DNA of 64,000 nucleotides from a virus. How positions within the stretch are numbered: position 1 is the stretch's first letter; every line of letters starts with the position of its first letter. Below the pieces are notes generated by a model. It had not been told where the DNA came from, ran no database searches, and saw only the letters and a list, made by a program, of their open reading frames with translations. Shown here piece after piece: positions 8,415 to 25,225 of this stretch. Location of the stretch: positions 62,001 to 126,000 of IMG/VR virus record IMGVR_UViG_3300020391_000290; one strand, given 5' to 3'. The translations under genes and the position numbers were made by a program.

Positions 8415-8759
8415 ATGAAAAATCAAGAAGAGTACGCTCGTGAAAGATTCGAGCTTAATAGACAAAAACAAACATTAAAAGAACAACAACAACAAAGACT
8501 TACGGTCACATATAATGGTGGAATATTTTTAGTAGATATGACATTACTATCATATTTGTATATGAAAAATGTAAATGCAGGATTATTTCAACAAAGTAAA
8601 GAAGACATAATACCGGATAGTTACGATACTCCTATAAAAATAGATGTGCAAGAATTAATAGTCTTATGCGATGAACGTTGGAAAGAAGTCCATAATGATT
8701 GGATAGACCAATATGAAGAATTAAAAACTACACGTAAGGCCGGCGATGTCAGCGTCTAA
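8415..8759 (+). CDS. Conserved phage hypothetical protein
   Basis: This 114-residue protein has a charged, Gln-rich N-terminal helix (residues 1-27) and a compact domain containing LLSYLYMKN, PIKIDVQELIVLCDERW and WIDQYEELKTTRKAG. I recognise the general pattern from marine T4-like phages but know no function. It is the first gene after the consensus promoter, and its ATG coincides with the predicted transcription start. It overlaps the following glycosyltransferase gene by 14 bases. Confidence 0.7.
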   Translation: MKNQEEYARERFELNRQKQTLKEQQQQRLTVTYNGGIFLVDMTLLSYLYMKNVNAGLFQQSKEDIIPDSYDTPIKIDVQELIVLCDERWKEVHNDWIDQYEELKTTRKAGDVSV

Positions 8760-9528
8760 AGGCGTTCTTTTATTATATACAGAAAATAATTCATTAGACT
8801 ATAAACGTCTAGCAAATTTATCTGCAAGACTTGCTAAACATTATTTGAATGTACCTGCAACTATAGTAAAAATTGATCCTGTCAAAAAAAATACTAGAGT
8901 ATTCAGATATGATGACGGTACCGAAACTATGGAATGGAATAATATTGGTCGATATAGTGCTTATGATCTTAGTCCATATGATGAAACTTTACTAATAGAC
9001 ACAGATTATTTTATTCAAAATAATAATTTAGGTAATTACTTTGAAACTCCTAATACTTTTTTATGCCATAATAATAGTTGGGATATATCTGGTAACGATG
9101 TATTTAGACATGATCAATTTTTAGAAAATGGAGGCAACGGTTTTGAAATGCGTTGGGCTACAGTAGTCTTTTTTAAAAAAAGTATATATGCCAAACAAAT
9201 ATTTGATACTTGGCGTGTTGTATATGAAAATTACAAATACTATAGTAGATTATTTGGATTTAGCGAAACTCCATTTAGAAATGATTTCGCACTAAGCATA
9301 GCCCATCAGATATGCAATGGATATAAAAATACAAACACATTTAAACACAGATTACCCGCACTAAGCACTACTGATACAGTTTTGAATTACGGAAATTGTA
9401 ATTGGCTTATAAAATATAAATTTAAGCAATCCTATAATGTAGTAAGATACAAAGGTGACTTACACGTAATGAACAAAAGATGTATACTTCATAGTGACCT
9501 TTATAGTAAATTATGGAATAGTGTATGA
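8746..9528 (+). CDS. Putative GT-A-type glycosyltransferase
   Basis: A 260-residue protein with a Rossmann-like N-terminus (GVLLLYTENN, then ARLAKHYLNVPATIV) and a DxD-type motif, LLIDTDYF, near residue 85. Together these suggest a GT-A nucleotide-sugar transferase with metal-binding aspartates. The C-terminal half is aromatic-rich and has no recognised acceptor domain. It overlaps both neighbours (14 and 4 bases) in the cassette and is followed by a second GT-A-like gene. The sugar and acceptor cannot be told from sequence. Confidence 0.6.
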   Translation: MSASKGVLLLYTENNSLDYKRLANLSARLAKHYLNVPATIVKIDPVKKNTRVFRYDDGTETMEWNNIGRYSAYDLSPYDETLLIDTDYFIQNNNLGNYFETPNTFLCHNNSWDISGNDVFRHDQFLENGGNGFEMRWATVVFFKKSIYAKQIFDTWRVVYENYKYYSRLFGFSETPFRNDFALSIAHQICNGYKNTNTFKHRLPALSTTDTVLNYGNCNWLIKYKFKQSYNVVRYKGDLHVMNKRCILHSDLYSKLWNSV

Positions 9529-10340
9529 GAGAAAAAACCTATCAACAAGGATATTTAACTTTTGCACAAGGTGAAATGTATCTGAAATGTGCATACTTAC
9601 TGGCTTTAAGTATTAAAACATATTGTACTATAAACAAATTTGCAGTGGTTGTAGATGAAAATACAAAAGTGCCTTCGAACATGGCAGAAATATTTGACGA
9701 AGTAATTGTTATTCCCACCATGGATCCATTTGCTAACGAATGTTTAGCATGGGAACTTACCCCTTTTAAAGAAACCTTTAAGGTAGAAAGTGATATGATT
9801 ATTACTAGTAATATAGATCATTGGTGGCATGGAGTAAGATTGAAAAACATTTGTTTTACAACAAAAGTGTGTAATTACAGAGGCGAATATGCTAATGATT
9901 ATATATATAGAAAAATGTGGTATGAAAATTATATGTTGAATGGTTACAACGGCTTTATGTATTTTAGACATTGTGAAGAAACACAAAAGTTTTTTAAAAA
10001 TTGTAAAATAGTTTTGAATAACTTTCATATATATAAAAATAAAATATTAAAAAATTGTAGACATGAGGTTGCAGACACAGATGTGTTTATGAGTATAGTA
10101 GCGACCGAACTAGGTAAAGAAAATTTTTATTTGCCAAGCCTTTGTTATCCTACTTTTACGCATATGAAATCGCACATAAATAATTTTGCTACAGACGATT
10201 GGCGTAATGCTTGTAGTTGGGCATTAACAGATGATAAAATTTTTTTAGTAAACGGATATGCACAAACAATACCTTTTCATTATTTTCATAAAGATTTTTG
10301 TACACAAGAGTTAGTAAAAAGATATGAGCAGTTTCTTTGA
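9525..10340 (+). CDS. Putative glycosyltransferase (GT-A-like)
   Basis: A 271-residue protein whose start overlaps the previous stop (ATGA). The N-terminus has a sugar-nucleotide-binding-like pattern: YLLALSIKTYC, then FAVVVDENTK. A KVESDMIIT motif near residue 90 sits where GT-A enzymes have DxD, with an ESD variant. It also has HEVADTDVFMSIVA and HYFHKDFC. Similar proteins are widespread in marine T4-like phages as glycosyltransferases. The motif deviation makes activity less certain. It belongs to the same transcript as the preceding transferase. Confidence 0.55.
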   Translation: MREKTYQQGYLTFAQGEMYLKCAYLLALSIKTYCTINKFAVVVDENTKVPSNMAEIFDEVIVIPTMDPFANECLAWELTPFKETFKVESDMIITSNIDHWWHGVRLKNICFTTKVCNYRGEYANDYIYRKMWYENYMLNGYNGFMYFRHCEETQKFFKNCKIVLNNFHIYKNKILKNCRHEVADTDVFMSIVATELGKENFYLPSLCYPTFTHMKSHINNFATDDWRNACSWALTDDKIFLVNGYAQTIPFHYFHKDFCTQELVKRYEQFL

Positions 10341-10629
10341 TATAGTAGATGTTTTTGAAGCAGTCCCTCCTCCTGAAATACGTTTGTATTATAATCTTGA
10401 TGGTTCTATTTTAAAAACTGCATATGTTGCTAAAGAAGTTGCAGAAAAAGAACCATATATTGTAATTACACAAGAACAATATGATGGTTTAAATAGAAAA
10501 CTAAATTTTGTAATTGACGATGAACTAGTTTATGTGGAGAAAAAATTAAAACTCTGGTATTTAACACAAGCAGAATTAGAAAGGAATCCATACGTATGCA
10601 AACAGCAACTGACATCCAAAGAGGAATAG
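10324..10629 (+). CDS. Hypothetical protein in glycosyltransferase cluster
   Basis: A 101-residue protein with a short beta-rich central part (RLYYNLDGSI, then EPYIVITQEQYDGL) and a charged C-terminus. It overlaps the upstream gene by 17 bases and the downstream oxygenase by 34 bases in a different frame, which suggests tight translational coupling. No domain is recognised. It is one of four small cassette proteins without an enzymatic motif, and so a possible carrier or substrate for the surrounding modifying enzymes; that is speculation. Confidence 0.65.
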   Translation: MSSFFDIVDVFEAVPPPEIRLYYNLDGSILKTAYVAKEVAEKEPYIVITQEQYDGLNRKLNFVIDDELVYVEKKLKLWYLTQAELERNPYVCKQQLTSKEE

Positions 10630-11360
10630 ATAGCTTTGAAGTGCTACGACCTTTTGGTCCTTGTATTGTTAAAGCTAAAATACCCGAACAAGTATTACTA
10701 GACTTAATACAAGTATTTGAAAAAAATGGTGACGCAAAAGATCATAGCATGGAGTTAGCAGGCAATATGGTTCGTGAATTTACTATTGATGATAAAATAC
10801 TTAACCCTGAACAAGCACAAAGATTTGTACAAATGTTAGCAGATGGTAGTGCAGAAGTATATAAGGCAGGTAAAAAAGTACGTTGGGAAAATACGAGACG
10901 ATATGTTACAAAAAGACACGTAGATCTTGTAGATCCTCGGATGGACAATATGCAATTAAGTTGTGCTATACACAGTAGTTGGGGTAATATAAGTGTAGCT
11001 GGCGATTTTAATCCATCTCATAGTCATGCTGGTATGATAAGTGGTGTAGGATATTTGCGTTTACCAGATAATATAGAACAAGAATGGGAAAATGAAGATC
11101 ATGATCCTAGTGTCGGTATGATTAATTTTATTAATGGTAGTACTTTGCCTTTGGATTCAAACAGTACTAGATTTAGACCTGCAATAGGAGATATATATTT
11201 CTTTCCTGCATGGCTTACACATCAAGTTTATCCATTTCGTAGTGAAGGTGAAAGATGGAGTTTTAGTTTTAATACCACTATTGAAAATTTACATGATGAT
11301 ACAGATCTTACAAATGCAGATAAAAAAATAATTAAAGAAGGTTATAATGACAAAAGTTGA
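10596..11360 (+). CDS. 2OG-Fe(II) oxygenase-like protein
   Basis: A 254-residue protein with a double-stranded beta-helix pattern. A His-rich iron site lies at FNPSHSHAG (about residues 138-146). The distal His is in FFPAWLTHQVYPF (about residue 210), followed by ERWSFSFN, where the Arg would bind 2-oxoglutarate. This matches the phage 2OG oxygenase family common in marine myoviruses. Substrates are unknown; hydroxylation of a protein, nucleic acid or glycan are all possible. It is the first of four such enzymes in the window. Confidence 0.7.
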   Translation: MQTATDIQRGIDSFEVLRPFGPCIVKAKIPEQVLLDLIQVFEKNGDAKDHSMELAGNMVREFTIDDKILNPEQAQRFVQMLADGSAEVYKAGKKVRWENTRRYVTKRHVDLVDPRMDNMQLSCAIHSSWGNISVAGDFNPSHSHAGMISGVGYLRLPDNIEQEWENEDHDPSVGMINFINGSTLPLDSNSTRFRPAIGDIYFFPAWLTHQVYPFRSEGERWSFSFNTTIENLHDDTDLTNADKKIIKEGYNDKS

Positions 11361-12258
11361 TGTTGCTGACTTAGATTGTATATATCTAAGTTATGATGAG
11401 CCTATGAAAGAAGAGTTTTGGGTTAAGATTCAAAATATGGTTCCGTGGGCTAAAAGAGTAGATGGAGTCGAAGGAAGCGATGCGGCTCATAAAGCAGCGG
11501 CAAAGGCAAGTGATACAGAACGTTTTGTATTATTAGATGGCGATAATATGCCTTATCCTGAATTCTTTGATATAACTTTGGATATAAAAGATGAATATAA
11601 AGATTGCGTTTTCCGTTGGAAAGCAATAAATGCAATAAACGGATTGATGTACGGAAACGGAGGTATTAGTTGCTGGACACGTAGTTTTGTAAATAAAATG
11701 AAAACACATGAAAACAGTGATGGTGCAGACGAAAATGAAGTAGAATTTTGTTATGATCCAAAATACCTTGCGATGAATAATGTATATAGTACTACACATC
11801 CTAATGGTGATGCATTTCATTCCTGGAGAGCAGGATTTAGAGAAGGTGTAAAAATGTGTCTTAATAGAGGCACAAAACCTACATTAATAGAATTTAATGA
11901 AATGGTGCATAAGAGTAATTTCGATAGACTAAGCGTATGGCATAACATAGGGGCAGATGCAAATTTTGGCGATTATTGTATTGCAGGTGCTAGATATGGT
12001 ACTTATAGAACAATGCTTACTGAATGGGACTATACGGAAGTACAGGACTTTTATCACTTAGGAGAGATATATTCTGAATGGAAAGGTATTGACCAATTAA
12101 AAATTAACAACCTACTACAAACACGTTTAGGATTACATATAAGTGAGTTTACAAGTGAACAAAGTAAGTTCTTCAAAAAAAATTACCTGCAGACACATAG
12201 ACAAACTGATCCAATGAGATTAGAAATTGATTCTATACGTAGTGCAGAAGGCTGGTAA
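11347..12258 (+). CDS. Glycosyltransferase-like phage protein, paralogue of 26244-27518
   Basis: A 303-residue protein with KAAAKASDTERFVLLDGDNMP (residues ~49-70, containing a DGD metal-type motif), NGLMYGNGGISCW and SWRAGFREGVKM. The same order of motifs occurs in the C-terminal half of the protein at 26244-27518 (KAAANLSDTEWF, NGLEYGAMNINLY, TWRSAFREVLKL), so the two are paralogues near opposite ends of the cassette. The LLDGDN motif resembles GT-A DxD sites. I would call it a probable transferase but not name a reaction. Confidence 0.55.
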   Translation: MTKVDVADLDCIYLSYDEPMKEEFWVKIQNMVPWAKRVDGVEGSDAAHKAAAKASDTERFVLLDGDNMPYPEFFDITLDIKDEYKDCVFRWKAINAINGLMYGNGGISCWTRSFVNKMKTHENSDGADENEVEFCYDPKYLAMNNVYSTTHPNGDAFHSWRAGFREGVKMCLNRGTKPTLIEFNEMVHKSNFDRLSVWHNIGADANFGDYCIAGARYGTYRTMLTEWDYTEVQDFYHLGEIYSEWKGIDQLKINNLLQTRLGLHISEFTSEQSKFFKKNYLQTHRQTDPMRLEIDSIRSAEGW

Positions 12259-13616
12259 TGAGTGATTATTACAACGATGCATTAGTTGCCAAGGCTAAAT
12301 TAGCAAATGTAAGTGACAGTTTCTGTTTAGCTAAATGGAAACAAGTAAGTTTACATTTGACTACTGGACATACTAATAGTTGTTATCATCCTCCACTGCA
12401 TAAAATTCCTATTGCTCCGCTTTGGGATAATCCTAGTGCTTTACATAATACTGAACACAAAAAACAAAGCCGTAAAGAGATGATTAAAGGAATAAAGTGT
12501 ACAGACTGTAATTATTGTTGGAATATTGAAGCACAAGGAAATTTAAGTGACAGGCATTATCGTAGTGGTGAACCTTGGGCTATGGATACCTTTGACGACA
12601 TTGTTAATAATCCTGAGGCAGATGTAAATCCTAGCTACGTAGAAGTAAATTTTAATAATGTATGTAATCTAGCCTGTAGTTATTGTTCACCTCAATTTAG
12701 TAGCACATGGACAAAAGAATCAAAAGAATTTGGTGCTTGGCCTACTAGTACACCACATAATGACCCTACACATTTTGTAGGAGATCGTCGTGCAATTGCT
12801 AACAGAGAAGATAATCCTTATAGAGAAGCATTTTGGCGTTGGTGGCCTGACTTATATAAAGATTTAAAACATTTTCGTATGACAGGTGGCGAACCTACTA
12901 TGGATCCAAACACTTATCGAGTGTTTGATTATGTCCTTAAGAACCCTAAAACAGATTTACATCTCAATACAACAAGTAATTTTTCTGTACAAGAAAAAAT
13001 ATGGCAAAAATACAAGTCGTATGTCCAGCGGCTATGTGAAGGTCAACAAATAGAGCATTTTATGCAGTTTGTCAGTCTTGATACTTGGGGTTCTCAAGCA
13101 GAATATATTAGACATGGGTTAAATTTTGACCTTGCGATAAATAGATGTGAAGAGTTTGTAAGAGATGTTCCATATAGAAGCAGTCTTACATTCATCGTCA
13201 CAATGAATAATCTAAGTATCCTTTCATTAAAAAAACTTTTAGAGTACATTGTGTACTTACGAAAAACATATACAGATACATATCAACGTATATGGTTCGA
13301 TACGCCTCTTCTGTATACGCCAGAATGGCAAAGTTTACAAATATTACCTCAAGAGTATAGTGTTATAATGGATGAGGTAATAAAATATATGGAGGAAAAC
13401 TTAGATGAAATGCATGGATTTAAGGACTATGAAGTGCTTAAAATGAAAAGAGATAGAGACTGGATGTTGTTAGGGACTAATAATGTAGAACGTAAAAGAG
13501 GTGACTTTTACAAATTTTTTACAGAGCATGATAAACGTCGTAATACAAATTTTTTAAAAACTTTTCCTGAAATGGAAAATTTTTGGTCACAATGTATGTA
13601 TTGGAGTAATAAGTGA
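12258..13616 (+). CDS. Radical SAM protein with N-terminal cysteine cluster (copy A)
   Basis: A 452-residue protein. The radical SAM motif is C136-x3-C140-x2-C143 (CNLACSYC), with TGGEP at 209-213 for SAM binding. The N-terminus has C23, C42 and a C81-x2-C84-x2-C87 set (CTDCNYCW), which could hold an auxiliary Fe-S cluster as in SPASM/twitch enzymes, though here it precedes the core. It is closely related to copy B (16490-17884): shared AKW, C-x-HP, HKI, LHNT and SDR motifs. It overlaps the upstream stop by one base (TAATG) and the next gene by four. Radical SAM chemistry is clear; the substrate is unknown. Confidence 0.85.
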   Translation: MSDYYNDALVAKAKLANVSDSFCLAKWKQVSLHLTTGHTNSCYHPPLHKIPIAPLWDNPSALHNTEHKKQSRKEMIKGIKCTDCNYCWNIEAQGNLSDRHYRSGEPWAMDTFDDIVNNPEADVNPSYVEVNFNNVCNLACSYCSPQFSSTWTKESKEFGAWPTSTPHNDPTHFVGDRRAIANREDNPYREAFWRWWPDLYKDLKHFRMTGGEPTMDPNTYRVFDYVLKNPKTDLHLNTTSNFSVQEKIWQKYKSYVQRLCEGQQIEHFMQFVSLDTWGSQAEYIRHGLNFDLAINRCEEFVRDVPYRSSLTFIVTMNNLSILSLKKLLEYIVYLRKTYTDTYQRIWFDTPLLYTPEWQSLQILPQEYSVIMDEVIKYMEENLDEMHGFKDYEVLKMKRDRDWMLLGTNNVERKRGDFYKFFTEHDKRRNTNFLKTFPEMENFWSQCMYWSNK

Positions 13617-15112
13617 TTGACTTATTATTACTAAATGTTCCTCGTATTAGTTTAGTATATCCGCCAGCTGGCACTAGTCTGCTAAAAGGAGTGGTAGAAC
13701 AGCAAGGATTTACTTGTACTGTAAAAGATTCTAACTTTGAATTATTGGATAGTATAAAAAATGATGAAGATTTTGAAGAAATAACAAATTATTTTACAAT
13801 TCCTAATGCGGAGGTTACTACACATTGTCAAAAAATTATAGATCAATGGTATACTGATCTAGTAAATTATATTTTAAAACTAAATCCAAGACATGTTGGC
13901 ATTAGTGTTTTTACGTTTGAATGTCAAGTGGCAACTAGGGAATTATGTAAACTATTACGTGCAGTATATAAAGGTAAGATTATAATTGGAGGTGCTGGAT
14001 TAAGCACAACAGGCATAGCAACACAAGTTAACGATTTTGGAAACATGTTGTTATCAAGCAAACAGGTTGATTATTATGTACGCGGTGAAGGTGAACATGC
14101 ATTAATAGATATATTAAAAGAAAATACAGGAAGTGGTATTAATAACGACAACTATGTACAAATAGAAGATCTAAATAGCCTTGCTTATCCTAATTACGAT
14201 GACGTAATTAAATATGAATATCATTATAGTATAGAAAATATACAATTACCAATTACTACAAGTAGAGGATGTGTAAGAAGGTGTAGTTTTTGTGATATAC
14301 ATGCATTTTGGAAAAAGTATACATATAGATCTGGAGAAAATATAGCTGGTGAGATGATTTCACATTACGAAAAGTATGGAGTACGTGATTTTTTCTTTAC
14401 AGATAGTCTAATAAACGGAAATTTAAAAAGTTTTCGACAACTATGTGACTGGTTAGTAAACTATTATGAAGCTAATAATCTTCCTGACAAATTTTTTAGT
14501 TGGGGAGGTCAATGGATTGTGAGGACAGAAAAACATTTAAGTCCAGATGACTATAAAAAAGCCGCAAGGAGTGGAATGAATGGGTTAGCAATGGGCGTAG
14601 AAAGCCTAAGTGAACAAATAAGAAAAGATATGAATAAAGGGTTTAAAAATGTTGATATTGATTATACACTAGAGCAGTTTAGATTGCACGGTATAAATTG
14701 TTATTTCCTAATGATAGTAGGGTATCCTACTGAAAAAGAAGAACATCATTTAGAAACAATGCAAATGTTTACAAAATATCAAGGTTATGCAATTGACGGA
14801 ACAATATTTGGTGTGAACTTAGGAGGAACTTTAAGCATAGACGAAGGAAGTCCTTTACATAAAGGCAGTATACACTTTGGATTAGAGCCAACAACAGAAA
14901 ATGAAGAATTATTTGGTTTAGATTGGACAAGCAAAGAAAATCCAAAACTTACTTTACTAGAAAGAATAAATCGACGAATAGACCTACAAGAATTACTTAT
15001 GGATTTAGGTTATACTGTATGGAATGGTGATCATCAATTAAAAAGACTTAAAGCAAGTTATGAGCGTATTAAACAAAATACCTATCACTTTAAAGATATA
15101 CTACACTCATAG
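13613..15112 (+). CDS. B12-binding-type radical SAM protein
   Basis: A 499-residue protein starting with GTG that overlaps the previous stop. The N-terminal 190 residues have a Rossmann-like layout of cobalamin-binding radical SAM proteins (ISLVYPPAGTSLLKG; KIIIGGAGLSTTG; VRGEGEHAL), but the cobalamin-ligand motif DxHxxG is not present, so B12 binding is uncertain. The radical SAM core has C220-x3-C224-x2-C227 (CVRRCSFC), with GVESLSEQIRK and MIVGYPTE as later family motifs. It lies between two groups of cassette enzymes. Family membership is secure; reaction unknown. Confidence 0.8.
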   Translation: MIDLLLLNVPRISLVYPPAGTSLLKGVVEQQGFTCTVKDSNFELLDSIKNDEDFEEITNYFTIPNAEVTTHCQKIIDQWYTDLVNYILKLNPRHVGISVFTFECQVATRELCKLLRAVYKGKIIIGGAGLSTTGIATQVNDFGNMLLSSKQVDYYVRGEGEHALIDILKENTGSGINNDNYVQIEDLNSLAYPNYDDVIKYEYHYSIENIQLPITTSRGCVRRCSFCDIHAFWKKYTYRSGENIAGEMISHYEKYGVRDFFFTDSLINGNLKSFRQLCDWLVNYYEANNLPDKFFSWGGQWIVRTEKHLSPDDYKKAARSGMNGLAMGVESLSEQIRKDMNKGFKNVDIDYTLEQFRLHGINCYFLMIVGYPTEKEEHHLETMQMFTKYQGYAIDGTIFGVNLGGTLSIDEGSPLHKGSIHFGLEPTTENEELFGLDWTSKENPKLTLLERINRRIDLQELLMDLGYTVWNGDHQLKRLKASYERIKQNTYHFKDILHS

Positions 15113-15569
15113 TGGACACACAAATGGCTGGCCTTTGTGTAGAATATTATGGGATAATAAACAAGTAGCAAACTTTAAAGCGGATGGACAAGAAATAGAG
15201 TTTACAGTACTCCCTAAACCTGAAGGTATCAGTACACTTATAGTAGAACATTATGGGAAAAATGTATATACTGAACATGATAAATTTATAGAAGTAATTG
15301 CAATGAGAGTGAATAACATACCATTAAAAAATATACTATGGGAATCAACACAATATCCAATAACTGCACCCTGGGACGAGCCGTGGCAAGAAGACGGAAA
15401 TTTATATCTCGGACATAATGGTCATATTGTTTGGAAATTTAATAATCCTATGTTGTTAGATATACAAAAAAGATTAGGAGTACGGAGACGTACTCAAGAA
15501 GGACAGGAAAGTACAAAACAAGTGTTAAATGAAATAAAAGAATATTTTAAAAATGAAAAAGATAGATAA
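15060..15569 (+). CDS. Hypothetical beta-rich protein in radical SAM cassette
   Basis: A 169-residue protein with a beta-sandwich-like pattern (ITLKIYYTHSGHTNGWP, then IEFTVLP, STLIVEHYGK) reminiscent of small carbohydrate-binding or carrier domains. It also has a LYLGHNGHIVWKFNNP segment and a charged C-terminal helix. The assigned ATG overlaps the radical SAM gene by 53 bases; no closer ATG or GTG in frame was found, so either the overlap is real or the start is non-canonical. No catalytic motif is visible. Confidence 0.65.
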   Translation: MSVLNKIPITLKIYYTHSGHTNGWPLCRILWDNKQVANFKADGQEIEFTVLPKPEGISTLIVEHYGKNVYTEHDKFIEVIAMRVNNIPLKNILWESTQYPITAPWDEPWQEDGNLYLGHNGHIVWKFNNPMLLDIQKRLGVRRRTQEGQESTKQVLNEIKEYFKNEKDR

Positions 15570-16194
15570 TTTTTTTACTAAAAAAGATTGCGAATGGTTT
15601 TTGTGGTATAATACTATTTTACCTGACACAAGAGATAATGGATTGCGTTTAATGAGTATGACACACTTTGCACAACCATTTTTTGCACGTAAACTTACGG
15701 ATTTACATAAACGTTTGCCAGATAATGAAGAAATTACTACATTAAATATTAATTTTGACTATGGAGCAGGTGGGATACATAGTGATGGATATATTGAACA
15801 TGATAAGAATGATGAAATTGCCAACAGTTATCTTATTCCTATTATAGTAAATGAAGTAGACAAATATTATACAATTGTATTTGATCAAGTTAGTAAGGAA
15901 GCAGTTACATTCAACGGCGAAACAGGTTTAGGAGATAAAGGTATAACCACTTATAAGCAAATTACTAGTGATGATTTTGGTCTAAGCAACGAACCTTTTG
16001 ATAAAGAAATTTATGACATGTATCTTACTCATTTAAACTACAATGCTTTAAAAGGACTGACAGTAGCACATGTACATGAATGGACACTAGGAAGTGCAAT
16101 GACATGGCCCAGACAGAATTTTCATGTAAGTGCAAACTTTGTAAATAAAAATACTAGAGCAAGTGTGTTAATTACAACGAGATACAAATGTTAG
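15553..16194 (+). CDS. 2OG-Fe(II) dioxygenase-like protein
   Basis: A 213-residue protein with an HxD iron motif, GGIHSDGYIEHD (H at about residue 75). A distal His lies in NFHVSANFVN near residue 193, followed by NTRASVLITTRY, where the Arg would bind 2-oxoglutarate. This is the layout of double-stranded beta-helix dioxygenases. It overlaps both neighbours by 17 and 7 bases. It is the second oxygenase in the cassette and could act with the flanking radical SAM enzymes. Substrate unknown. Confidence 0.65.
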   Translation: MKKIDNFFTKKDCEWFLWYNTILPDTRDNGLRLMSMTHFAQPFFARKLTDLHKRLPDNEEITTLNINFDYGAGGIHSDGYIEHDKNDEIANSYLIPIIVNEVDKYYTIVFDQVSKEAVTFNGETGLGDKGITTYKQITSDDFGLSNEPFDKEIYDMYLTHLNYNALKGLTVAHVHEWTLGSAMTWPRQNFHVSANFVNKNTRASVLITTRYKC

Positions 16195-16493
16195 AATTTG
16201 ATTTTAAAAACAATGGTAGTATCGTTTATGATATCGAAATAAAAGACAGAGGAGCTAAGATACGTTTTTATGGAAAAAACTACAATACAAATACTGATGA
16301 TTATGTTATAATAGAAAATATATATTATAAAGACTTAATACTTCCAGAACTATTAGAATTCAGTAAAATGACTACAGATAACAAAGATTATAAAGAATTG
16401 ACTAATGTAAATTATATAAGTTTTAATGGCATATGGGAAATTAAGTTTACAGACAATGATTTGAAACAGATATTAAAGAAAAAATTGACATGA
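16188..16493 (+). CDS. Hypothetical protein between oxygenase and radical SAM genes
   Basis: A 101-residue protein with FDFKNNGSIVYDIEIKDRG and a C-terminal YISFNGIWEIKFTDNDLKQ; the pattern suggests a small alpha/beta or beta-sandwich domain. There are no Cys or His clusters and no membrane segment. It overlaps both neighbours by 7 and 4 bases. No function is recognised; it could be a carrier or substrate for the adjacent enzymes. Confidence 0.65.
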   Translation: MLEFDFKNNGSIVYDIEIKDRGAKIRFYGKNYNTNTDDYVIIENIYYKDLILPELLEFSKMTTDNKDYKELTNVNYISFNGIWEIKFTDNDLKQILKKKLT

Positions 16494-17884
16494 GTGAAGG
16501 AAATCCTGCAAATAATTTAGAAGTTTTACAAAACACTTTACCTCCTTTGGAGTTTAAAAAACTTCATTTAGATAAACGTAGTAGTAGTTTTTGTGGTGCG
16601 AAATGGTACAATGCAACAATATGGCTTGGTAGTGGTATGACGACTAGTTGTCATCATCCTTTGCCACATAAAATTGATCCTATTGCAGTACAAACTAATC
16701 CAAAATTATTACATAACACACCTGAGAAAAAGGAACAGAGGCGTCAAATGCAGTGTGGTGAACGTCCTAGTGGATGTGAATACTGTTGGAAAATTGAAGA
16801 TATGGGCTCACAACATGTTAGTGATAGAGTTTATAAAAGTTGGATATATACAGATGAGGAACTTACTGATGCATTTACAAGAGACTATAATGAAGATTTT
16901 GAACTTAGAAGCCTTGAGATCGCCTTTGACAGGACATGCAATTTTGCTTGTAGTTATTGCAATCCTGCGTTTTCAAGCACTTGGGTAAAAGATCTTAAAA
17001 AAGACGGACCATATAAAAACTTACAAAGTGATGGAAGAGGACACTTTACACATCCACACGATTCTAATCAATTGTATGGATATCAAGAATTTAATCCTTA
17101 TGTGGAAGCGTTTTTTAAATGGTGGGATAGTGACTTACATAAAACACTTAGGCAATTAAGAGTGACTGGCGGGGAGCCGTTAATGAGCCCAGATCTTTGG
17201 AAACTTATAGAATGGTTTGAAAAGAATGGAGATAAAAGTACGACAAGTCTAGCAATAAACAGTAATTTGGTTGCAAAGCCTGAACTGATACAACGTCTAA
17301 TAAATGTTAAACGACATCTGCCTAGTTTAGCCGTTTATACAAGTGCAGAAGCAATAGGTGGGGCGGCAGAATACATACGTGATGGAATGAACTTTACACA
17401 ATGGTGGGATAATATATGTCGTTTACACGAAGCAGATATCGATACACATTGTATGTGTACAATAAATGCACTTTGTTTAGAAACATTACCTGACTTAGTA
17501 GAACGCATTATGAAGCAACGCAAAGAGTATGGTATGCGTTTCGCAGTTATGAGCTTTAATATATTACGTTTTCCTAGTTTTCAAAGTCCATTAGTTTTAC
17601 CAGATAATATTAAACTGAGACACGTAGATAGATTAAAGCAATTACGTAAAACTTATGCACCTAAATTGTTAAATAGAACAGATTGCTTTCATGAATTTGA
17701 ATTAGGACAATTAGATAGATTAATAGAATATATACAAGTAGTAGATAAACCTCACAGCGAAGGATTTGATATGCCTAGATTACATAATGATTTTAGAAAG
17801 TTTTATCAGCAATATGATATAAGAAGAAATAAAAATTTTCCTAAAACTTTTCCAGAACTAGAGGAATGGTATGAAACACTATGA
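16490..17884 (+). CDS. Radical SAM protein with N-terminal cysteine cluster (copy B)
   Basis: A 464-residue protein. The core motif is C150-x3-C154-x2-C157 (CNFACSYC), followed by TGGEPLMSP near residue 225. N-terminal Cys are at C35, C54, C89, C96 and C99. It is a clear paralogue of copy A (12258-13616), sharing FCxAKW, HHP/YHP, HKI, LHNT, CxYCW, SDRxY and a C-terminal DIRRNKNFPKTFPEL that parallels DKRRNTNFLKTFPEM. The shared C-terminus also appears in looser form in the other cassette radical SAM proteins. It overlaps both neighbours by 4 bases. Confidence 0.85.
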   Translation: MSEGNPANNLEVLQNTLPPLEFKKLHLDKRSSSFCGAKWYNATIWLGSGMTTSCHHPLPHKIDPIAVQTNPKLLHNTPEKKEQRRQMQCGERPSGCEYCWKIEDMGSQHVSDRVYKSWIYTDEELTDAFTRDYNEDFELRSLEIAFDRTCNFACSYCNPAFSSTWVKDLKKDGPYKNLQSDGRGHFTHPHDSNQLYGYQEFNPYVEAFFKWWDSDLHKTLRQLRVTGGEPLMSPDLWKLIEWFEKNGDKSTTSLAINSNLVAKPELIQRLINVKRHLPSLAVYTSAEAIGGAAEYIRDGMNFTQWWDNICRLHEADIDTHCMCTINALCLETLPDLVERIMKQRKEYGMRFAVMSFNILRFPSFQSPLVLPDNIKLRHVDRLKQLRKTYAPKLLNRTDCFHEFELGQLDRLIEYIQVVDKPHSEGFDMPRLHNDFRKFYQQYDIRRNKNFPKTFPELEEWYETL

Positions 17885-19197
17885 CAGATGACTTAGACAA
17901 TTACTATAAAAATTATGATTACCATACACGTAAACCTGTTTATGTTAAGATTGAAGATTTAAATGAAACACAACGTAGTAGACTTTTGACTAGTAAAAGT
18001 TTTTGTATACTTCCATGGGTACACCTACATGCATTTCCAACAGGTGAAGCATATCCTTGTTGTTTAGCACGTATGGATCAACCTCTTGGTTCGCTACGTG
18101 AAAGTTCAATGAAAGAAATATGGAACAGTACTGATCTTAAAAAAATGAGAGAAAATATGATGCAAGACAAATCTTGTAATCAGTGTACTAAATGTTATGA
18201 GCAAGAAGAAAATGGTTTTGTAAGTATGCGTTATAGTGCTAACAAAAATCATGGCCATCATATTACAAGAGTCGACGAAACTGAACAGGATGGGTATTAC
18301 AAAGATTTCAAATTAACTTATTATGATATCCGTTTTAGTAACTTATGTAATTTAAGTTGTAGATCATGTGGTGATATTTTTAGCAGTAACTGGGTAAAGG
18401 AAGCAAAAAAATATGGTTGGTTAAAACCAAGCCATCCTAATGTAAGTTATGCTGGCAAATACGAAATGGATATGTGGGAGCAACTGCAACCTCATTTGGA
18501 TAGTATCGAAAATGTTTACTTTGCCGGCGGTGAACCGCTAATGATGAAGGAACATTATAATTTATTAAATGCACTTATTGAAAGAGGTAGAACAGATGTA
18601 CGTCTAAACTACAATACAAATTTTACGGAATTAATATTTAAAAAACAAGATGTACTAGAATTATGGAATAAGTTTGATGTAGTAAGTATTGGTGCTAGTT
18701 TAGATGCAAGTTACGACAGAGGCGAACTTATGCGTAAAGGTACAAATTGGACTAAAGTTGTAGAAAATCGCAAACGTATGTTAGAGATTTGTCCAACCGT
18801 AGATTTTTATATTAGTACAACTCTTAGTGTAATGAATGTTTATCATATATTGGATCTGCATAAAGAATGGACTGAACTTGGACTAATTAAAGCACAGGAT
18901 TTTAATGTCAATATACTTCAAGATCCTGAACGTTTTAGAATAGATATACTACCAACAGATATGAAACAGGAAATTAACGACTTATATAAAGAACACATAG
19001 AATGGTTAGAACCACAGGATAATCTTACTCGTGCAACAAATGGATTTAAAAGTGCAATTACTTTTATGAATGCAAAAGATAATAGTGCATTAATCGATGA
19101 TTTTGTAAAACGTACAGACGAAATGGATCGCTTTAGGAACGAAGGATTCTTTTCAGTATTTCCAGAATTAGAAAGACTTCGAAAGTATGTCAAGTAA
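17881..19197 (+). CDS. Radical SAM protein with N-terminal CxLPW/PCC domain (copy C)
   Basis: A 438-residue protein. The N-terminal domain is FCILPWVHLH with C42, then YPCCLAR (C60, C61) and SCNQCTKC (C99, C102, C105). This is the pattern of a SPASM/twitch auxiliary-cluster region placed before the core. Core: C156-x3-C160-x2-C163 (CNLSCRSC), then AGGEPLMMK near residue 215. The C-terminus has FFSVFPELERL. It forms a second subfamily with copies D and E. It overlaps the upstream gene by 4 bases and the downstream one by 11. Confidence 0.85.
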   Translation: MTDDLDNYYKNYDYHTRKPVYVKIEDLNETQRSRLLTSKSFCILPWVHLHAFPTGEAYPCCLARMDQPLGSLRESSMKEIWNSTDLKKMRENMMQDKSCNQCTKCYEQEENGFVSMRYSANKNHGHHITRVDETEQDGYYKDFKLTYYDIRFSNLCNLSCRSCGDIFSSNWVKEAKKYGWLKPSHPNVSYAGKYEMDMWEQLQPHLDSIENVYFAGGEPLMMKEHYNLLNALIERGRTDVRLNYNTNFTELIFKKQDVLELWNKFDVVSIGASLDASYDRGELMRKGTNWTKVVENRKRMLEICPTVDFYISTTLSVMNVYHILDLHKEWTELGLIKAQDFNVNILQDPERFRIDILPTDMKQEINDLYKEHIEWLEPQDNLTRATNGFKSAITFMNAKDNSALIDDFVKRTDEMDRFRNEGFFSVFPELERLRKYVK

Positions 19198-20380
19198 ATG
19201 TATTCTTCCATGGATTAGTATAGAAACAACACCTTCAGGCACAACAAGGCCTTGTTGTTTATATACAGATGAAATCCCAAATGTAAACTTAGCTACTTCA
19301 ACATTACAAGATGCTTTTAATAGTAAATTTATGCGTAATTTAAGACGTGCTTTTAGGCGTGGCGAAAAACCTGAGGGTTGTAGAAACTGTTGGCGTGAAG
19401 AAGACGCAGGTAAAAAGTCAAAACGACAATATATGCTTGAAAAGTTTAGTGATATTAATGTACAATACAAAGATAATAATGGTGAAGATTTAGTATTTTT
19501 AGATCTTAAACTAGGTAATATTTGTAATCTAAAATGTCGTATTTGTGGAAGCTGGAGTAGTAGCAAATGGGCACAAGAAGAATTAGACTATGTAGAAGAT
19601 TCTACAAATCATATTGCAAAAAAATGGTTAAAGGATGGACAGTGGCCCAGAAAGAGTCCACGTTTTTGGGATAATATAGATGAATTGTTGCCTCAAATAA
19701 AATATTTTGAATTTACTGGTGGCGAACCGTGGATGATAAAACAACATTTTGAATTATTACAAAATGCCGTAAATAAAGATTATGCCAAAAATATTGATAT
19801 ACACTACAATACGAATACAACACAGTTTCCTAAAGATCCGACTATATGGAAACATTTCAAAAATGTACAAATTGCTTTCAGTGTTGATAATACAGGAGAA
19901 CGTTTTGAGTATGAACGTTATGGAGCAAAATGGAAAACGTCTAATGCAAATATTAAAAAGGTACACGCCCTAAGAGAAAAAGGTTATCCTATTACTACAC
20001 AACTATGTTGTACATGGAATATACAAAATATTTTTTATTTAGATGAAATACTTACGTGGGCAAAAACAATGACTTTCGATAGCATACATTTCAATGTAAT
20101 GCACGATCCATGGGAATTTAGTTTAAGCAAAACACCTATTCATGCACGTAGTCCTATTATGTTGTATTTACAAAAGCAACAAATTTTGCATAGACAATAT
20201 AAAAATGATATTATCGCATTGAAAACGTTAGTAGAAAAAGCGAACATGAACGAAACACCTGAAGAACCAGAGACCGGTCAATCACTTCATAAAAAATTAA
20301 GACAAACTGATTTGTATCGTAATCAAAACTTTGCACTTAGTCATACAAAAATAGCACAAGCAATAAAATATGAACTCTAA
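19187..20380 (+). CDS. Radical SAM protein with N-terminal CxLPW/PCC domain (copy D)
   Basis: A 397-residue protein with the shortest N-terminus of the set: C5 in KCILPWISI, C23-C24 in RPCCLY, C65 and C68 in GCRNCW. Core: C113-x3-C117-x2-C120 (CNLKCRIC), followed by GSWSSSKW, a motif shared with other copies (FSSTW, FSSNW, LSSAW). TGGEPWM occurs near residue 184. It overlaps both neighbours by 11 bases. Radical SAM assignment is secure; the acceptor is unknown. Confidence 0.85.
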   Translation: MSSKCILPWISIETTPSGTTRPCCLYTDEIPNVNLATSTLQDAFNSKFMRNLRRAFRRGEKPEGCRNCWREEDAGKKSKRQYMLEKFSDINVQYKDNNGEDLVFLDLKLGNICNLKCRICGSWSSSKWAQEELDYVEDSTNHIAKKWLKDGQWPRKSPRFWDNIDELLPQIKYFEFTGGEPWMIKQHFELLQNAVNKDYAKNIDIHYNTNTTQFPKDPTIWKHFKNVQIAFSVDNTGERFEYERYGAKWKTSNANIKKVHALREKGYPITTQLCCTWNIQNIFYLDEILTWAKTMTFDSIHFNVMHDPWEFSLSKTPIHARSPIMLYLQKQQILHRQYKNDIIALKTLVEKANMNETPEEPETGQSLHKKLRQTDLYRNQNFALSHTKIAQAIKYEL

Positions 20381-21647
20381 GCCAGAAAATTTATGTATGG
20401 CTCCTTGGACCCATACTTATCTGAGTCCGCAAACAGAACGCAGATTATGTTGTGCTAGTAGAGAACCTGCACAAAATTTTAAACAATACATCGATACAAC
20501 GGAAGGTACTAATGAATATAAACCGTCTACGCTAGAAGAATATTGGAACGGTGAAAATATTAGACGTATTCGTATGCAAATGTTAAACAATGTAGTACCA
20601 CCTGAATGTGTAGTGTGTGATAAAAAATTATTAAATCAAGATGTATATAGAGATTACTTTAATCATTTATTTGCACATAAATGGAATGACGTCGTTGAAA
20701 ATACACAAGATAATGGATATACGACTATGAAACCAATTAGTTGGGACTATCGTTTTAGTAATTTATGTAACTTTAAATGTAGAATGTGTGGGCCTATGTT
20801 AAGTAGTGCTTGGGAAACAGAAGCACGTAAACAGGATAAAATAGAACCTTGGATGGAAAAGTCAGTAAAGACTAAAATTGAAACATTTCAAAAGGACACC
20901 GTTGAAAAGGAGTTTAACACTGCAGTTGAAGAACATAGAATTGAAGAAGTCTATTGGGTTGGCGGTGAACCACTTATGTATGAGCAACATTGGCGTTATA
21001 TGCAACGTATTATTGAATTAGGTGATGGACCAGGACTATATGCAAGATATAATACAAATTTACATAGAGTAAATTACAAAGGGGTAAATTTGTATCAAGA
21101 CATTTTAGATAATATACGTGATTGGCAAATATGTGCAAGTTTAGATGGAACTAGTGAAGTAGGTGAATACATAAGGACAGGATTAGTATATGATACATGG
21201 AAGAAAAATTTTGAACAAGGATTAGCACATGCAAGAAATAAACGCATGATGCGTATTGATTTTACATTAACCTTACCTGGACTATTTGATATTGTAAATA
21301 TATGTAGGTTAGCTAGAGAATATGATGTAGATATATTAGCAAAAGTAGTATTTGCATTTACTCCAGATATTGCAATGAGTCCTCTTTTTTTACCTAGAGA
21401 TATTTTGCACTATATAGTCAATAGTTTACTATTGACAAGTGAAGTAGATAATAGTACAATAATAAACATGCTCAAAAGTTTATTGGATAGACCAACATTT
21501 GAAGAAGAATTTCCTAATGAATATAAAAAAGCAAGAATAAAAGGCAAATGGCGTATGCAGGCAATGGATAATTTACGAGGTGGAATGAAGTTTGTAGATA
21601 CTTTGAAAGATTACAAGGCAAAAGAATTTTGGAATGGAATTTGTTAA
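20370..21647 (+). CDS. Radical SAM protein with N-terminal CxxPW/CC domain (copy E)
   Basis: A 425-residue protein. N-terminal Cys: C9 in LCMAPWTH, C27-C28 in RLCCAS, C80 and C83 in PECVVC. Core: C133-x3-C137-x2-C140 (CNFKCRMC), then LSSAWETEARK and VGGEPLMYE near residue 200. It belongs to the same subfamily as copies C and D. It overlaps copy D by 11 bases and is followed directly, with no gap, by the APS-kinase-like gene. It is the last of the radical SAM run. Confidence 0.85.
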   Translation: MNSKPENLCMAPWTHTYLSPQTERRLCCASREPAQNFKQYIDTTEGTNEYKPSTLEEYWNGENIRRIRMQMLNNVVPPECVVCDKKLLNQDVYRDYFNHLFAHKWNDVVENTQDNGYTTMKPISWDYRFSNLCNFKCRMCGPMLSSAWETEARKQDKIEPWMEKSVKTKIETFQKDTVEKEFNTAVEEHRIEEVYWVGGEPLMYEQHWRYMQRIIELGDGPGLYARYNTNLHRVNYKGVNLYQDILDNIRDWQICASLDGTSEVGEYIRTGLVYDTWKKNFEQGLAHARNKRMMRIDFTLTLPGLFDIVNICRLAREYDVDILAKVVFAFTPDIAMSPLFLPRDILHYIVNSLLLTSEVDNSTIINMLKSLLDRPTFEEEFPNEYKKARIKGKWRMQAMDNLRGGMKFVDTLKDYKAKEFWNGIC

Positions 21648-22762: not shown

Positions 22763-23147
22763 CTGGAAAAAACCTACAGTCCAAATGCTAGGTAGATGGC
22801 AACCATGGCATGAAGGACATAGTGAACTTTTTGAAAAGGCATTAGAGAAAACGGGTCAAGTGCTAATTATGGTACGAGACGTACAAGGTGCTGATGCGGG
22901 TATGGGTAACACAGATAACCCGTTTGATTTTGATAAAGTAAGTAATGATATAGCGGGTGTTTTATTTCAAAAAGGTTATATTATTGGAGAAGAGTTTGAA
23001 ATAATGCTTGTGCCTAATATTGTAGATATAAGTTATGGACGAGGTGTAGGTTATACATTTACAGAACATGACTTAGGAGAACGTATACATAGTATTAGTG
23101 CAACAAAAATTAGGCATGACATGCGTAAAGTAGGTTTGTTAACATAA
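22755..23147 (+). CDS. Nucleotidylyltransferase (cytidylyltransferase-like), probable ATA start
   Basis: The protein has the nucleotidylyltransferase signature: GRWQPWHEGH (HxGH equivalent), then a C-terminal ISATKIRHDM (ISxTxIR). It is about 120-130 residues, the usual size of single-domain cytidylyl- or adenylyltransferases. The first in-frame ATG is at 22785 and has no ribosome site. The frame extends upstream through FDWKKPTVQ, a segment I recall as the conserved N-terminus in T4-like marine phage homologues. An AAAGGAG site ends seven bases before the ATA codon at 22755. I therefore place the start at ATA; the ATG is the conservative alternative. Product could be an activated sugar or polyol, or an NAD precursor. 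Confidence 0.65.
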   Translation: MFDWKKPTVQMLGRWQPWHEGHSELFEKALEKTGQVLIMVRDVQGADAGMGNTDNPFDFDKVSNDIAGVLFQKGYIIGEEFEIMLVPNIVDISYGRGVGYTFTEHDLGERIHSISATKIRHDMRKVGLLT

Positions 23148-23653
23148 TGATAGTTGTTATGGGCAGTGGTGAAGGAACAAATTTTCAAGCTCTTGCTAAA
23201 CATATTAGTATAGATTTAGTAATCACGAATAATAAAAATGCAAATATTGTAAACAGAGCAAAAAATTTAGGTGTCAAATACATTATAAGTAAAGATCAAT
23301 ATGAAAGTCACGTGCCTGTAAATACAAAACTTGTCATACTAGCAGGTTTTATGAAACTACTAAGTCCTGGTTTTGTTGATAAATTTAAAATAGTGAATAT
23401 TCATCCTAGTCTGTTGCCAAGTTTCAGAGGTATAGATGCAATTGGACAAGCACTAGATGCAGGTGTAAAATTTACAGGTTGTACAGTACATTGGGTAGAT
23501 AAAGGAATTGACACAGGCAAAATTATAGATCAATTGGTTTGCCCGATAGGTCCTAATGATAATAAAATTAATTTACAACAAAAAATACAAAAATTAGAAC
23601 ATAAAATTTATCCTGCAATTGTTAAGGAGTTGATACATGATAAGTTGGATTAA
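23147..23653 (+). CDS. purN: Phosphoribosylglycinamide formyltransferase
   Basis: A 168-residue protein, slightly short for PurN. It has the GSGEGTNFQAL N-terminal loop that binds the ribotide, LAGFMKLLSPGFV, NIHPSLLPSFRG (with the catalytic Asn and His) and DKGIDTGKIIDQ (with the catalytic Asp). It transfers a formyl group from 10-formyl-THF in step three of purine synthesis, so it would support phage purine supply. It overlaps the previous gene by one base and the small gene that follows by 17. The same enzyme is known as an auxiliary gene of marine T4-like phages. Confidence 0.88.
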   Translation: MIVVMGSGEGTNFQALAKHISIDLVITNNKNANIVNRAKNLGVKYIISKDQYESHVPVNTKLVILAGFMKLLSPGFVDKFKIVNIHPSLLPSFRGIDAIGQALDAGVKFTGCTVHWVDKGIDTGKIIDQLVCPIGPNDNKINLQQKIQKLEHKIYPAIVKELIHDKLD

Positions 23654-23741
23654 AAATATTATTAATAAAATTAAAATGGAAATAAGGTATCGTAAACGTT
23701 TAAAAGAACTAAGAAAACGAGACCCGTTTATATACAAATGA
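23637..23741 (+). CDS. Small basic phage protein ending RDPFIYK (34 aa)
   Basis: A 34-codon gene with a strong AAGGAG site seven bases before its ATG. The sequence starts MISWIKNI, is very Lys/Arg-rich, and ends LRKRDPFIYK. I recall small proteins with this ending in T4-like cyanophages, function unknown. It overlaps purN by 17 bases and the carbamoyltransferase start by four (ATGA). An amphipathic helix that binds membrane or nucleic acid is possible from composition only. Confidence 0.7.
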   Translation: MISWIKNIINKIKMEIRYRKRLKELRKRDPFIYK

Positions 23742-25225
23742 TACTAGGACTCAGTGCAGGCTTTCATGATGCTGGAGCCACTTTGATAGATAAAACAAAT
23801 GGCGAGATACTATTTGCTGGCCATGCGGAAAGGTATAGTGGTGTAAAAAATGATGCTAATCTAAATCAAGAACTTATAGATGATGCCCTAAGTTACGGTA
23901 AGCCTAATAACATAGCATGGTATGAAAAAACGTGGTTAAAAAGGACTAGGCAACTGTACAGTGGCGAATGGCGTAAAGCAATAGATTTTAGCACTAGTCC
24001 TAAAAAACTAATAAAACCTTTCATGGGCAAAATACCTATACATAGTTATGGACATCATAAATGCCATGCTGCGGCAGGTTTTCAAACTAGTCCATATAAA
24101 AATGCAATTGCAATAGTAGTTGATGCTATAGGAGAATGGGACACAATCAGTGTATGGGAATGTAGTTATAAACCTGTATACTTAGGTCGCCCTAAAGCAA
24201 CTTACAAAAAAATATGGAATCAAATTTATCCACACAGTATAGGATTATATTATAGTGCCATTACTAAGTACATAGGGCTAAAACCTATGGAAGATGAGTA
24301 TATAACAATGGGTATGGCAGCTTATGGTAAAGCATATTTGCAATCATATGAAAAAAATAAAATGCTTGTTGACCTAGATAAAATAGAGTTTGTAGATAAT
24401 TTTCATGCAGGTATCGAAGAGGATTATTTTGTTGGTAGTGGACTAGATAAATTTGATGTAGCCGCTGGCGCACAAAAAGTAGTTGAACAATTATTAAGAG
24501 GATTATTTGAACGTTTTGTTACAAGACAAACAAACGTTGTATTCATGGGCGGTGTAGCACTTAATTGTGTAGCAAATGCTATGCTAGAAGGCCATTGTAA
24601 AGATTTGTGGATTATGCCAAACCCGGGAGACTGTGGTAGTAGTCTAGGAGCGGCGGCACTACAATACGGAAAAAAATTACGTTGGAAAGGTCCATACTTA
24701 GGACATAATATACCAGGAGAGTATCCGATTGACGCTATTATAGGCGGCTTAATGTCAGATAAGATTGTAGGCGTCGCAAGTGGTAGAGCAGAATTTGGAC
24801 CTAGAGCATTAGGTACTAGAAGCCTACTTGCAGATCCACGTGGACACGATATTAAAGATAAAGTAAATAATATTAAGAAAAGACAAAAATTTAGACCTTT
24901 TGCTCCTATGATTCTTGAAGAACATTTTAAAGATGAATTTAGAGTATACAAAAAACAAAAAGAACCATATATGCAAAGTGTTTATAAGTGTTTGAATCCT
25001 GAATTATATCCAGCTATAGTACACCAAGATGGAACAAGTAGGGTACAAACTGTAGGTAAAAATGATCATCCAGATGTGAGACGACTATTAGAAAAATGGT
25101 ATTTCATGACAGGGTGTCCAATGTTGTTAAACACGAGTTTAAATATAAAAGGGGAACCTATGGTTAACAATAGAGCAGACGCAGATAAATTTGAAAAAAG
25201 ATATAATGTCAAGGTATGTAGTTAA
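23738..25225 (+). CDS. Carbamoyltransferase, NodU/TobZ family
   Basis: A 495-residue protein. The N-terminal ASKHA-fold kinase-like domain begins ILGLSAGFHDAGATL and has the metal-binding GHHKCHAA segment near residue 107. VFMGGVALNCVANA lies near residue 268. The C-terminal YrdC-like domain has GRAEFGPRALGTRSLLADPR and LNTSLNIKGEPMV. Family members make carbamoyl-AMP from carbamoyl phosphate and ATP and transfer it to a hydroxyl of a sugar or antibiotic. Here it would decorate the product of the cassette. It is abutted by the DUF59 gene. Confidence 0.85.
   Translation: MILGLSAGFHDAGATLIDKTNGEILFAGHAERYSGVKNDANLNQELIDDALSYGKPNNIAWYEKTWLKRTRQLYSGEWRKAIDFSTSPKKLIKPFMGKIPIHSYGHHKCHAAAGFQTSPYKNAIAIVVDAIGEWDTISVWECSYKPVYLGRPKATYKKIWNQIYPHSIGLYYSAITKYIGLKPMEDEYITMGMAAYGKAYLQSYEKNKMLVDLDKIEFVDNFHAGIEEDYFVGSGLDKFDVAAGAQKVVEQLLRGLFERFVTRQTNVVFMGGVALNCVANAMLEGHCKDLWIMPNPGDCGSSLGAAALQYGKKLRWKGPYLGHNIPGEYPIDAIIGGLMSDKIVGVASGRAEFGPRALGTRSLLADPRGHDIKDKVNNIKKRQKFRPFAPMILEEHFKDEFRVYKKQKEPYMQSVYKCLNPELYPAIVHQDGTSRVQTVGKNDHPDVRRLLEKWYFMTGCPMLLNTSLNIKGEPMVNNRADADKFEKRYNVKVCS

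Follow-up and report, generated by a model that had tools for sequence, protein, structure and literature searches.

A conserved row of five N_Twi radical SAM enzymes beside glycosyltransferase and fibre genes in uncultured phages

What would a phage make with five radical S-adenosylmethionine (SAM) enzymes encoded head to tail? The question is raised by bases 62001–126000 of the 133,896-base uncultured virus record IMGVR_UViG_3300020391_000290 (a stretch of 64,000 nucleotides, hereafter the window), which encodes a row of five paralogous radical SAM proteins, here termed A to E. The presence of a major capsid gene of the gp23 type (PF07068, 329 bits) marks the source as a T4-like phage; tail and fibre genes lie 5′ of the array. 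The initial annotation, made from the sequence without database searches, described bases 12258–21647 as an array of five radical SAM proteins with additional Cys ahead of the CxxxCxxC core, a B12-type radical SAM protein, two 2-oxoglutarate (2OG) oxygenases and small proteins. It suggested stepwise modification of a peptide, protein or glycan, with fibre proteins or small cassette proteins as candidate substrates. Our tentative answer, which may quite possibly be right, is that A–E form a conserved five-enzyme cassette within a phage glycan-building locus and tailor a glycan, most likely on the tail fibre.

All five proteins match the NCBIfam model NF033640 (N_Twi_rSAM) over their full length with 296–408 bits, against a cut-off of 170; the reversed domain order, with the auxiliary Cys preceding the radical SAM core, thus already defines a named family. 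This family is defined by sequence only, and to our knowledge no reaction has been characterised for any member. Neighbouring genes of the row overlap by 4–53 bases, and A shares a single base with the gene upstream, matching the overlaps first described. In alignments of 70–81 phage orthologs per group, and also in one 36-row alignment, four N-terminal Cys and the three Cys of the CxxxCxxC core are invariant, gaps aside, in all five groups (68/68 to 81/81); in A, these are C23, C42, C84 and C87 together with C136, C140 and C143 (70 sequences). Additional Cys are group-specific, namely C446 in A (70/70), C329 in B (76/77), C274 in D (80/80) and C255 in E (81/81), with none in C, a distribution that suggests different chemistry in different groups.

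The four N-terminal Cys fit a single twitch-like auxiliary [4Fe-4S] cluster and not the seven-Cys SPASM arrangement. A canonical SPASM domain lies C-terminal to the barrel and has seven Cys, whereas here the domain is N-terminal (residues 42–105 in C) and holds four invariant Cys, which are predicted Fe–S ligands on the strength of their invariance and family membership. Of the proposed reversed SPASM/twitch architecture, the order of the domains is borne out, and the cluster is more probably of the twitch-like kind. The Pfam SPASM model PF13186 recognises C (46 bits) and D above its cut-off, scores E at 18.7 against 21.5 and does not match A or B; the radical SAM model PF04055 recognises B, C, D and E, with A at 22.3 against 29.5. 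Membership of the radical SAM superfamily is indicated by the invariant CxxxCxxC, and the modelled fold of C agrees. When 59 radical SAM proteins from Vibrio phage K566 and ten contigs were placed in one tree, A to E fell into five supported clades, each represented in every one of the ten contigs. A and B group with full support, as the initial annotation had proposed; its second subfamily, C/D/E, is unsupported as one group, and the placement of D is ambiguous.

A search with C retrieved 14 viral contigs, and one with E at least 513 IMG/VR relatives. E-seeded counts below refer to the best 80 of these relatives, and GT303-seeded counts to a separate set of 80 loci from an independent search with the glycosyltransferase GT303; both were obtained with a simple open reading frame caller from top-ranked relatives of the query, and so describe this phage group rather than all phages. 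Among the E-seeded loci, D and E were present in 80/80, C in 79/80, B in 77/80, an O-carbamoyltransferase in 75/80, GT303 and a protein termed c6 in 74/80 each, and A in 73/80, many of the absences being contig ends. Where loci spanned the interval from GT303 to the carbamoyltransferase, A-B-C-D-E was complete and in order in 51 of 52, a regularity beyond chance; 45 of these 52 loci are distinct at 95% E identity, and the median pairwise E identity is 70%. Between A and B, the loci hold zero to five foreign genes, so the order is not merely frozen DNA. The GT303-seeded set gave all five in order in 9 of 11 spanning loci. In one divergent phage contig (L112), the positions of D and E are exchanged. 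Hundreds of uncultured aquatic phages bear this same five-enzyme row, and the preservation of five paralogs in order while their neighbours turn over indicates that they make one product, in line with the earlier view of the enzymes as one set. The new element is the strength of the module: five ortholog groups, a fixed order and fixed partners. In the literature searched, we came across no account of this N_Twi set of five genes, and, like the initial annotation, we know of no characterised function for it. Several of the phage contigs (L111–L115) had been binned in bacterial metagenome-assembled genomes (Betaproteobacteria, Pelagibacter, Verrucomicrobia, Rickettsiales and Flavobacterium).

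The fixed partners include fibre and glycosyltransferase genes. GT303-seeded loci share the constant run fib10-fib5-c7-GT8a-GT8a-c8-GT303-A, with GT8a in 80/80, fib5 in 78/80, A in 75/80 and c7 in 74/80; fib5 lies directly upstream of the module run in its 78 loci, which bears out the fibre link suggested at the outset. The GT8a profile has a weak match to glycogenin (E 0.009). GT303 carries a VLLDGDN motif and has a two-domain bacterial homolog above the cut-off of PF00535 (GT2); profile searches of GT303, c6 and c1 against PDB sequences gave nothing convincing. The identity of the carbamoyltransferase is unambiguous (PF02543 and PF16861), and next, on the opposite strand, come a nucleotide-sugar epimerase (41/80 E-seeded loci) and a DegT-type aminotransferase (50/80). 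Together, the GT8a pair, GT303, the carbamoyltransferase, the epimerase and the aminotransferase constitute a glycan biosynthesis locus. The small protein between the GT8 pair and GT303 was assigned to the c8 kind by eye, from its position and a recognisable RLYY..G motif shared with related loci; c7 and c8, as constant small neighbours, were examined as candidate precursor-type genes of a maturase system for ribosomally synthesized and post-translationally modified peptides (RiPPs), without a leader or core pattern emerging. Whereas the substrate class was at first left open, constant partners that are glycosyltransferases and a carbamoyltransferase, as judged from their sequences, favour a glycan over a bare peptide. 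A PurN-like formyltransferase, possibly a sugar N-formyltransferase, is also encoded among the sugar genes (23147–23653; PF00551, 129 bits).

Two further observations concern c6 (approximately 355 residues), which lies directly 3′ of E in the loci that hold it (for example, L033:11268-12350) and is absent from the window. Its structural model is confident (mean predicted local distance difference test score, pLDDT, of 86), with no PDB fold match at E 0.001 and with matches only to uncharacterised phage proteins. One Bdellovibrionota genome has a distant copy close to GT303 (L287:4359-5288, 46 bits).

We infer a glycan as the substrate and the fibre as its site, and propose the following scheme. 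The two GT8-like enzymes and GT303 would build a glycan, with the Ser/Thr-rich fib5 as the most likely acceptor. Each of the five N_Twi enzymes would then carry out one radical reaction on the glycan or a precursor of it, such as deoxygenation, epimerisation, dehydrogenation, or C–C or C–S bond formation, and the carbamoyltransferase would cap hydroxyls. Occasional cassettes encoding a B12 radical SAM protein, a 2OG-like protein, an SGNH protein or an amidinotransferase may add strain-specific decorations.

The genes between A and B in the window belong to this occasional class. The B12 enzyme occurs in 8/80 E-seeded loci, the 169-residue protein c22 in 4/80, and the inner 2OG-like protein and the 101-residue protein c24 in 3/80 each; the four often travel together, and c22 follows the B12 enzyme in L031, L032, L037, L039, L196 and L115. 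They are an inserted cassette and not part of the core, contrary to the initial inclusion of the B12 enzyme and the inner 2OG-like protein in one set. The description of the former as B12-type is upheld by its radical SAM match (PF04055, 56 bits) and a B12-binding score of 29.5 bits, just below the cut-off of 32.1. It falls under every curated NCBIfam cut-off, the best model being TIGR03975 (RiPP C-methyltransferase) with 98 against 282 bits. The two oxygenases fared differently: the upstream protein is a clear member of PF13759 (72 bits), likewise variable (3/80 loci), and lies outside bases 12258–21647, whereas the inner protein, like c22, gave no family match in model scans and has an HxD...H triad (H76, D78 and H191) that is invariant in five homologs. 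The 169- and 101-residue proteins had been candidate substrates of A–E; found in just 3–4 of 80 loci, they are unlikely to serve as such, and we rejected them.

N_Twi proteins also occur in bacteria. In 191 Bdellovibrionota genomes, N_Twi proteins above cut-off were found in 55 and GT303 in 11, all 11 lying within the 55 (hypergeometric 5e-7, a value that holds only if the genomes are independent, kinship being ignored), and the two kinds of gene are mostly side by side. One Bdellovibrionota protein (L188:10386-12293, G002:C27) fuses a radical SAM domain (CNASCPMC) to a GT303 domain. Among 108 bacterial neighbours, GT2 was the commonest Pfam family (11), the next non-glycosyltransferase family reaching three, and one locus also holds an AT3-SGNH acyltransferase. 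A Bacteriovoracaceae chromosomal contig (L119), in which obgE, rpmA and lgt were recognised by eye, carries N_Twi genes that, in a quick tree, are the nearest bacterial kin of phage clades A, B, D and E (for B, jointly with L121); for C, a second contig is about equally near. Support values in this tree are high (Shimodaira–Hasegawa-like approximate likelihood ratio test, 96–100), with long branches and no bootstrap. A Bdellovibrionia genome (G003, the genome of L125) contains 31 N_Twi matches, many within approximately 33 kb, and an ADI9 homolog (contig C192). A phage-like run, fib5-c7-GT8a-GT8a-small-GT303-radical SAM, was seen on a Bdellovibrionota contig near pheST (L280, G171:C21:131388-135790). 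We gave this case little weight as a bacterial example because it is the sole one in 191 genomes, GC content drops there from approximately 0.45 to 0.37 and a contig end is close by; the run may stem from a recent insertion of phage DNA or from a chimeric assembly.

Several observations weigh against a glycan on the fibre as the product. In the AlphaFold2 model of C (pLDDT 93), the radical SAM half (approximately residues 145–400) matches the sugar enzymes BlsE (Z 12.7) and DesII (12.6), and the peptide enzymes CteB (12.4), SkfB (12.3) and anSME (12.2) tie with them, so the modelled fold cannot tell sugar from peptide substrates. C differs from all five in the N-terminal position of its auxiliary-cluster domain, with less than 20% identity, and a profile search with C against PDB sequences gave nothing (E up to 0.01). 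The bacterial loci were partly selected for GT303, which favours glycosyltransferase neighbours, and are thus supportive rather than independent. GT303, GT8a and fib5 were not found in the genome of L119: the five belong together even without the phage partners and can exist in their absence, which weakens the claim of the fibre as an obligatory substrate. In Paenibacillus sp. (L139/L190), an N_Twi protein is clustered with two acyl-carrier proteins, a short-chain dehydrogenase/reductase and ketosynthases, so the wider family is not glycan-specific. Finally, the fibre link could just reflect a variable island behind the tail genes.

Possibly, A–E act on protein directly, modifying the fibre or c7/c8 at side chains or in the backbone, in the manner of RiPP maturases. 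Cross-linking or epimerisation would then make the fibre stiffer or protect it, and the glycosyltransferases would serve a separate purpose. Most SPASM/twitch radical SAM enzymes modify peptides, the tie of the radical SAM half of C with CteB, SkfB and anSME extends to SuiB, and fib5, c7 and c8 are constant neighbours; moreover, C274 of D and C255 of E, invariant in the barrel region, could be the H-donor Cys of an epimerase. We nevertheless regard such a role as unlikely, given that the constant neighbours include glycosyltransferases and a carbamoyltransferase, that no Pfam domain besides radical SAM and SPASM was found in A–E, that the window copy of c8 is without conserved Cys, that the fib5 alignment is too variable for a conserved core motif, and that the genome of L119, which holds kin of A to E, is without fib5. 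The tightness and constancy of the run fib5-c7-GT8a-GT8a-c8-GT303-A, which is no loose island, bear on a different account, in which the locus alters the lipopolysaccharide (LPS) or capsule of its host during infection, perhaps as a means of keeping other phages out, and sits beside the fibre genes as the usual spot of variable genes. Glycosyltransferases of pelagimyophage host-recognition clusters, where radical SAM cassettes also occur, have been read so (PMC7029224), and in Bdellovibrionota chromosomes the N_Twi genes have GT2 genes and one O-acyltransferase gene as neighbours. In the phage loci we noticed neither a polymerase nor a flippase, though no search was aimed at either, and we consider host-surface remodelling rather improbable. 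Very improbable, in our estimate, is that the array supports host Fe–S or redox metabolism during infection instead of making one product. Arrays with ATC, cas4, grx and paaD have been interpreted as serving Fe–S metabolism (Nishimura et al. 2017, PMC5332604), and a PaaD-like gene lies 3.6 kb downstream of the present array; however, PaaD occurs in only 7/80 loci, and the strict order of the five paralogs, their divergence and their group-specific Cys point to distinct reactions as opposed to a general Fe–S role.

In outline, the idea has precedents: papers from 2010, 2017 and 2020 describe T4-like phages with many radical SAM genes. The Campylobacter phages CP220 and CPt10 encode 11–12 radical SAM proteins, with a swappable module of five and an amidinotransferase (Timms et al. 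2010, PMC2853527). These T4-like phages resemble the present loci in that the five radical SAM genes accompany a pentein/amidinotransferase whose homolog in those loci is ADI9 (83 bits); two further genes of the CP220 module encode nucleotide-diphospho-sugar transferase domains, and a fib10-like gene lies approximately 10 kb away (48 bits). However, the CP220 radical SAM proteins are not N_Twi (best 31 bits against NF033640), and the 18 coding sequences compared include no GT303, c6 or carbamoyltransferase, ADI9 and fib10 being the only homologous ones. The marine T4-like phage TARA_ERS488813_N000010 has 12 radical SAM genes and paaD, read as Fe–S metabolism, and the available portion of the paper describes no ortholog groups, order or glycan link (Nishimura et al. 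2017, PMC5332604). Pelagimyophage host-recognition clusters likewise place glycosyltransferases and radical SAM cassettes next to tail fibres, with LPS modification proposed for the glycosyltransferases, but the cassettes were not split out as a module (2020, PMC7029224). Among named, sequenced records, Vibrio phages K566 and K567 carry five N_Twi-like proteins, two of them above cut-off; these differ in their approximately 23% identity to A–E and in gene order, and no other module family joined them in clustering. Isolate phages gave no match for B, c6, GT303 or c7.

The features of the locus are collected in Table 1. Elsewhere in the same phage, two more radical SAM genes are present on the minus strand (G000:C1:33663-34622 and 130693-131172), the first also with a SPASM match, and a 1401-residue protein (47220–51425, minus strand) matches a PHROG protease family.

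Table 1. Features of the radical SAM locus and its surroundings, in window coordinates; 80-locus counts are E-seeded unless marked.
Feature	Position	Strand	Basis
Radical SAM A (N_Twi_rSAM), core module	12258-13616	+	NF033640 314 bits; clade A single copy per contig, 10 contigs
Radical SAM B (N_Twi_rSAM), core module	16490-17884	+	NF033640 311 bits; closest to A
Radical SAM C (N_Twi_rSAM), core module	17881-19197	+	NF033640 408 bits; SPASM PF13186 46 bits
Radical SAM D (N_Twi_rSAM), core module	19187-20380	+	NF033640 327 bits
Radical SAM E (N_Twi_rSAM), core module	20370-21647	+	NF033640 296 bits
GT8-like glycosyltransferase 1, core module	8746-9528	+	GT8a family, weak glycogenin profile match
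GT8-like glycosyltransferase 2, core module	9525-10340	+	As for GT8-like glycosyltransferase 1
GT303, GT2-like glycosyltransferase, core module	11347-12258	+	VLLDGDN motif; 74/80 loci
O-carbamoyltransferase, core module	23738-25225	+	PF02543 and PF16861 above cut-off; 75/80 loci
fib10, tail-fibre-like protein	5985-7439	+	PHROG tail fibre and structural families
fib5, Ser/Thr/Gly-rich fibre-like protein, candidate acceptor	7461-8360	+	Conserved position, alignment
c7, 114 aa, 3′ of fibre gene	8415-8759	+	74/80 GT303-seeded loci
Small protein of c8 kind, between GT8 pair and GT303	10324-10629	+	RLYY..G motif and position, by eye
2OG-Fe(II) oxygenase, variable	10596-11360	+	PF13759 72 bits; 3/80 loci
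B12-type radical SAM protein, first gene of variable cassette	13613-15112	+	PF04055, B12-binding
c22, 169 aa, variable cassette	15060-15569	+	Travels with B12 enzyme; no family match
Probable 2OG-Fe(II) oxygenase-like protein, variable cassette	15553-16194	+	Conserved H76, D78, H191
c24, 101 aa, variable cassette	16188-16493	+	Nothing over cut-off
PaaD/MIP18-like Fe–S assembly protein, variable	25226-25552	+	PF01883 59 bits; 7/80 loci
Nucleotide-sugar epimerase c14	27496-28470	-	PF01370 135 bits; 41/80 loci
DegT-type sugar aminotransferase c31	28452-29453	-	PF01041 181 bits; 50/80 loci

In its fullest form, the proposal is of a virus-encoded, five-step radical assembly line that remakes sugars on the receptor-binding fibre of the virion; hundreds of uncultured phages would maintain it as a single unit, and predatory-type bacteria would have the same set in their chromosomes. 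We regard this as possible, while leaning against it. Radical SAM genes have been seen in phages from 2010 onwards, and each time their function was guessed at in general terms. A defined set with named partners and sequenced Vibrio phage relatives makes the question directly testable. If true, a radical-modified fibre glycan would give phages a new means of altering how an adhesin looks to hosts and defences, and would provide the first function for the N_Twi family.

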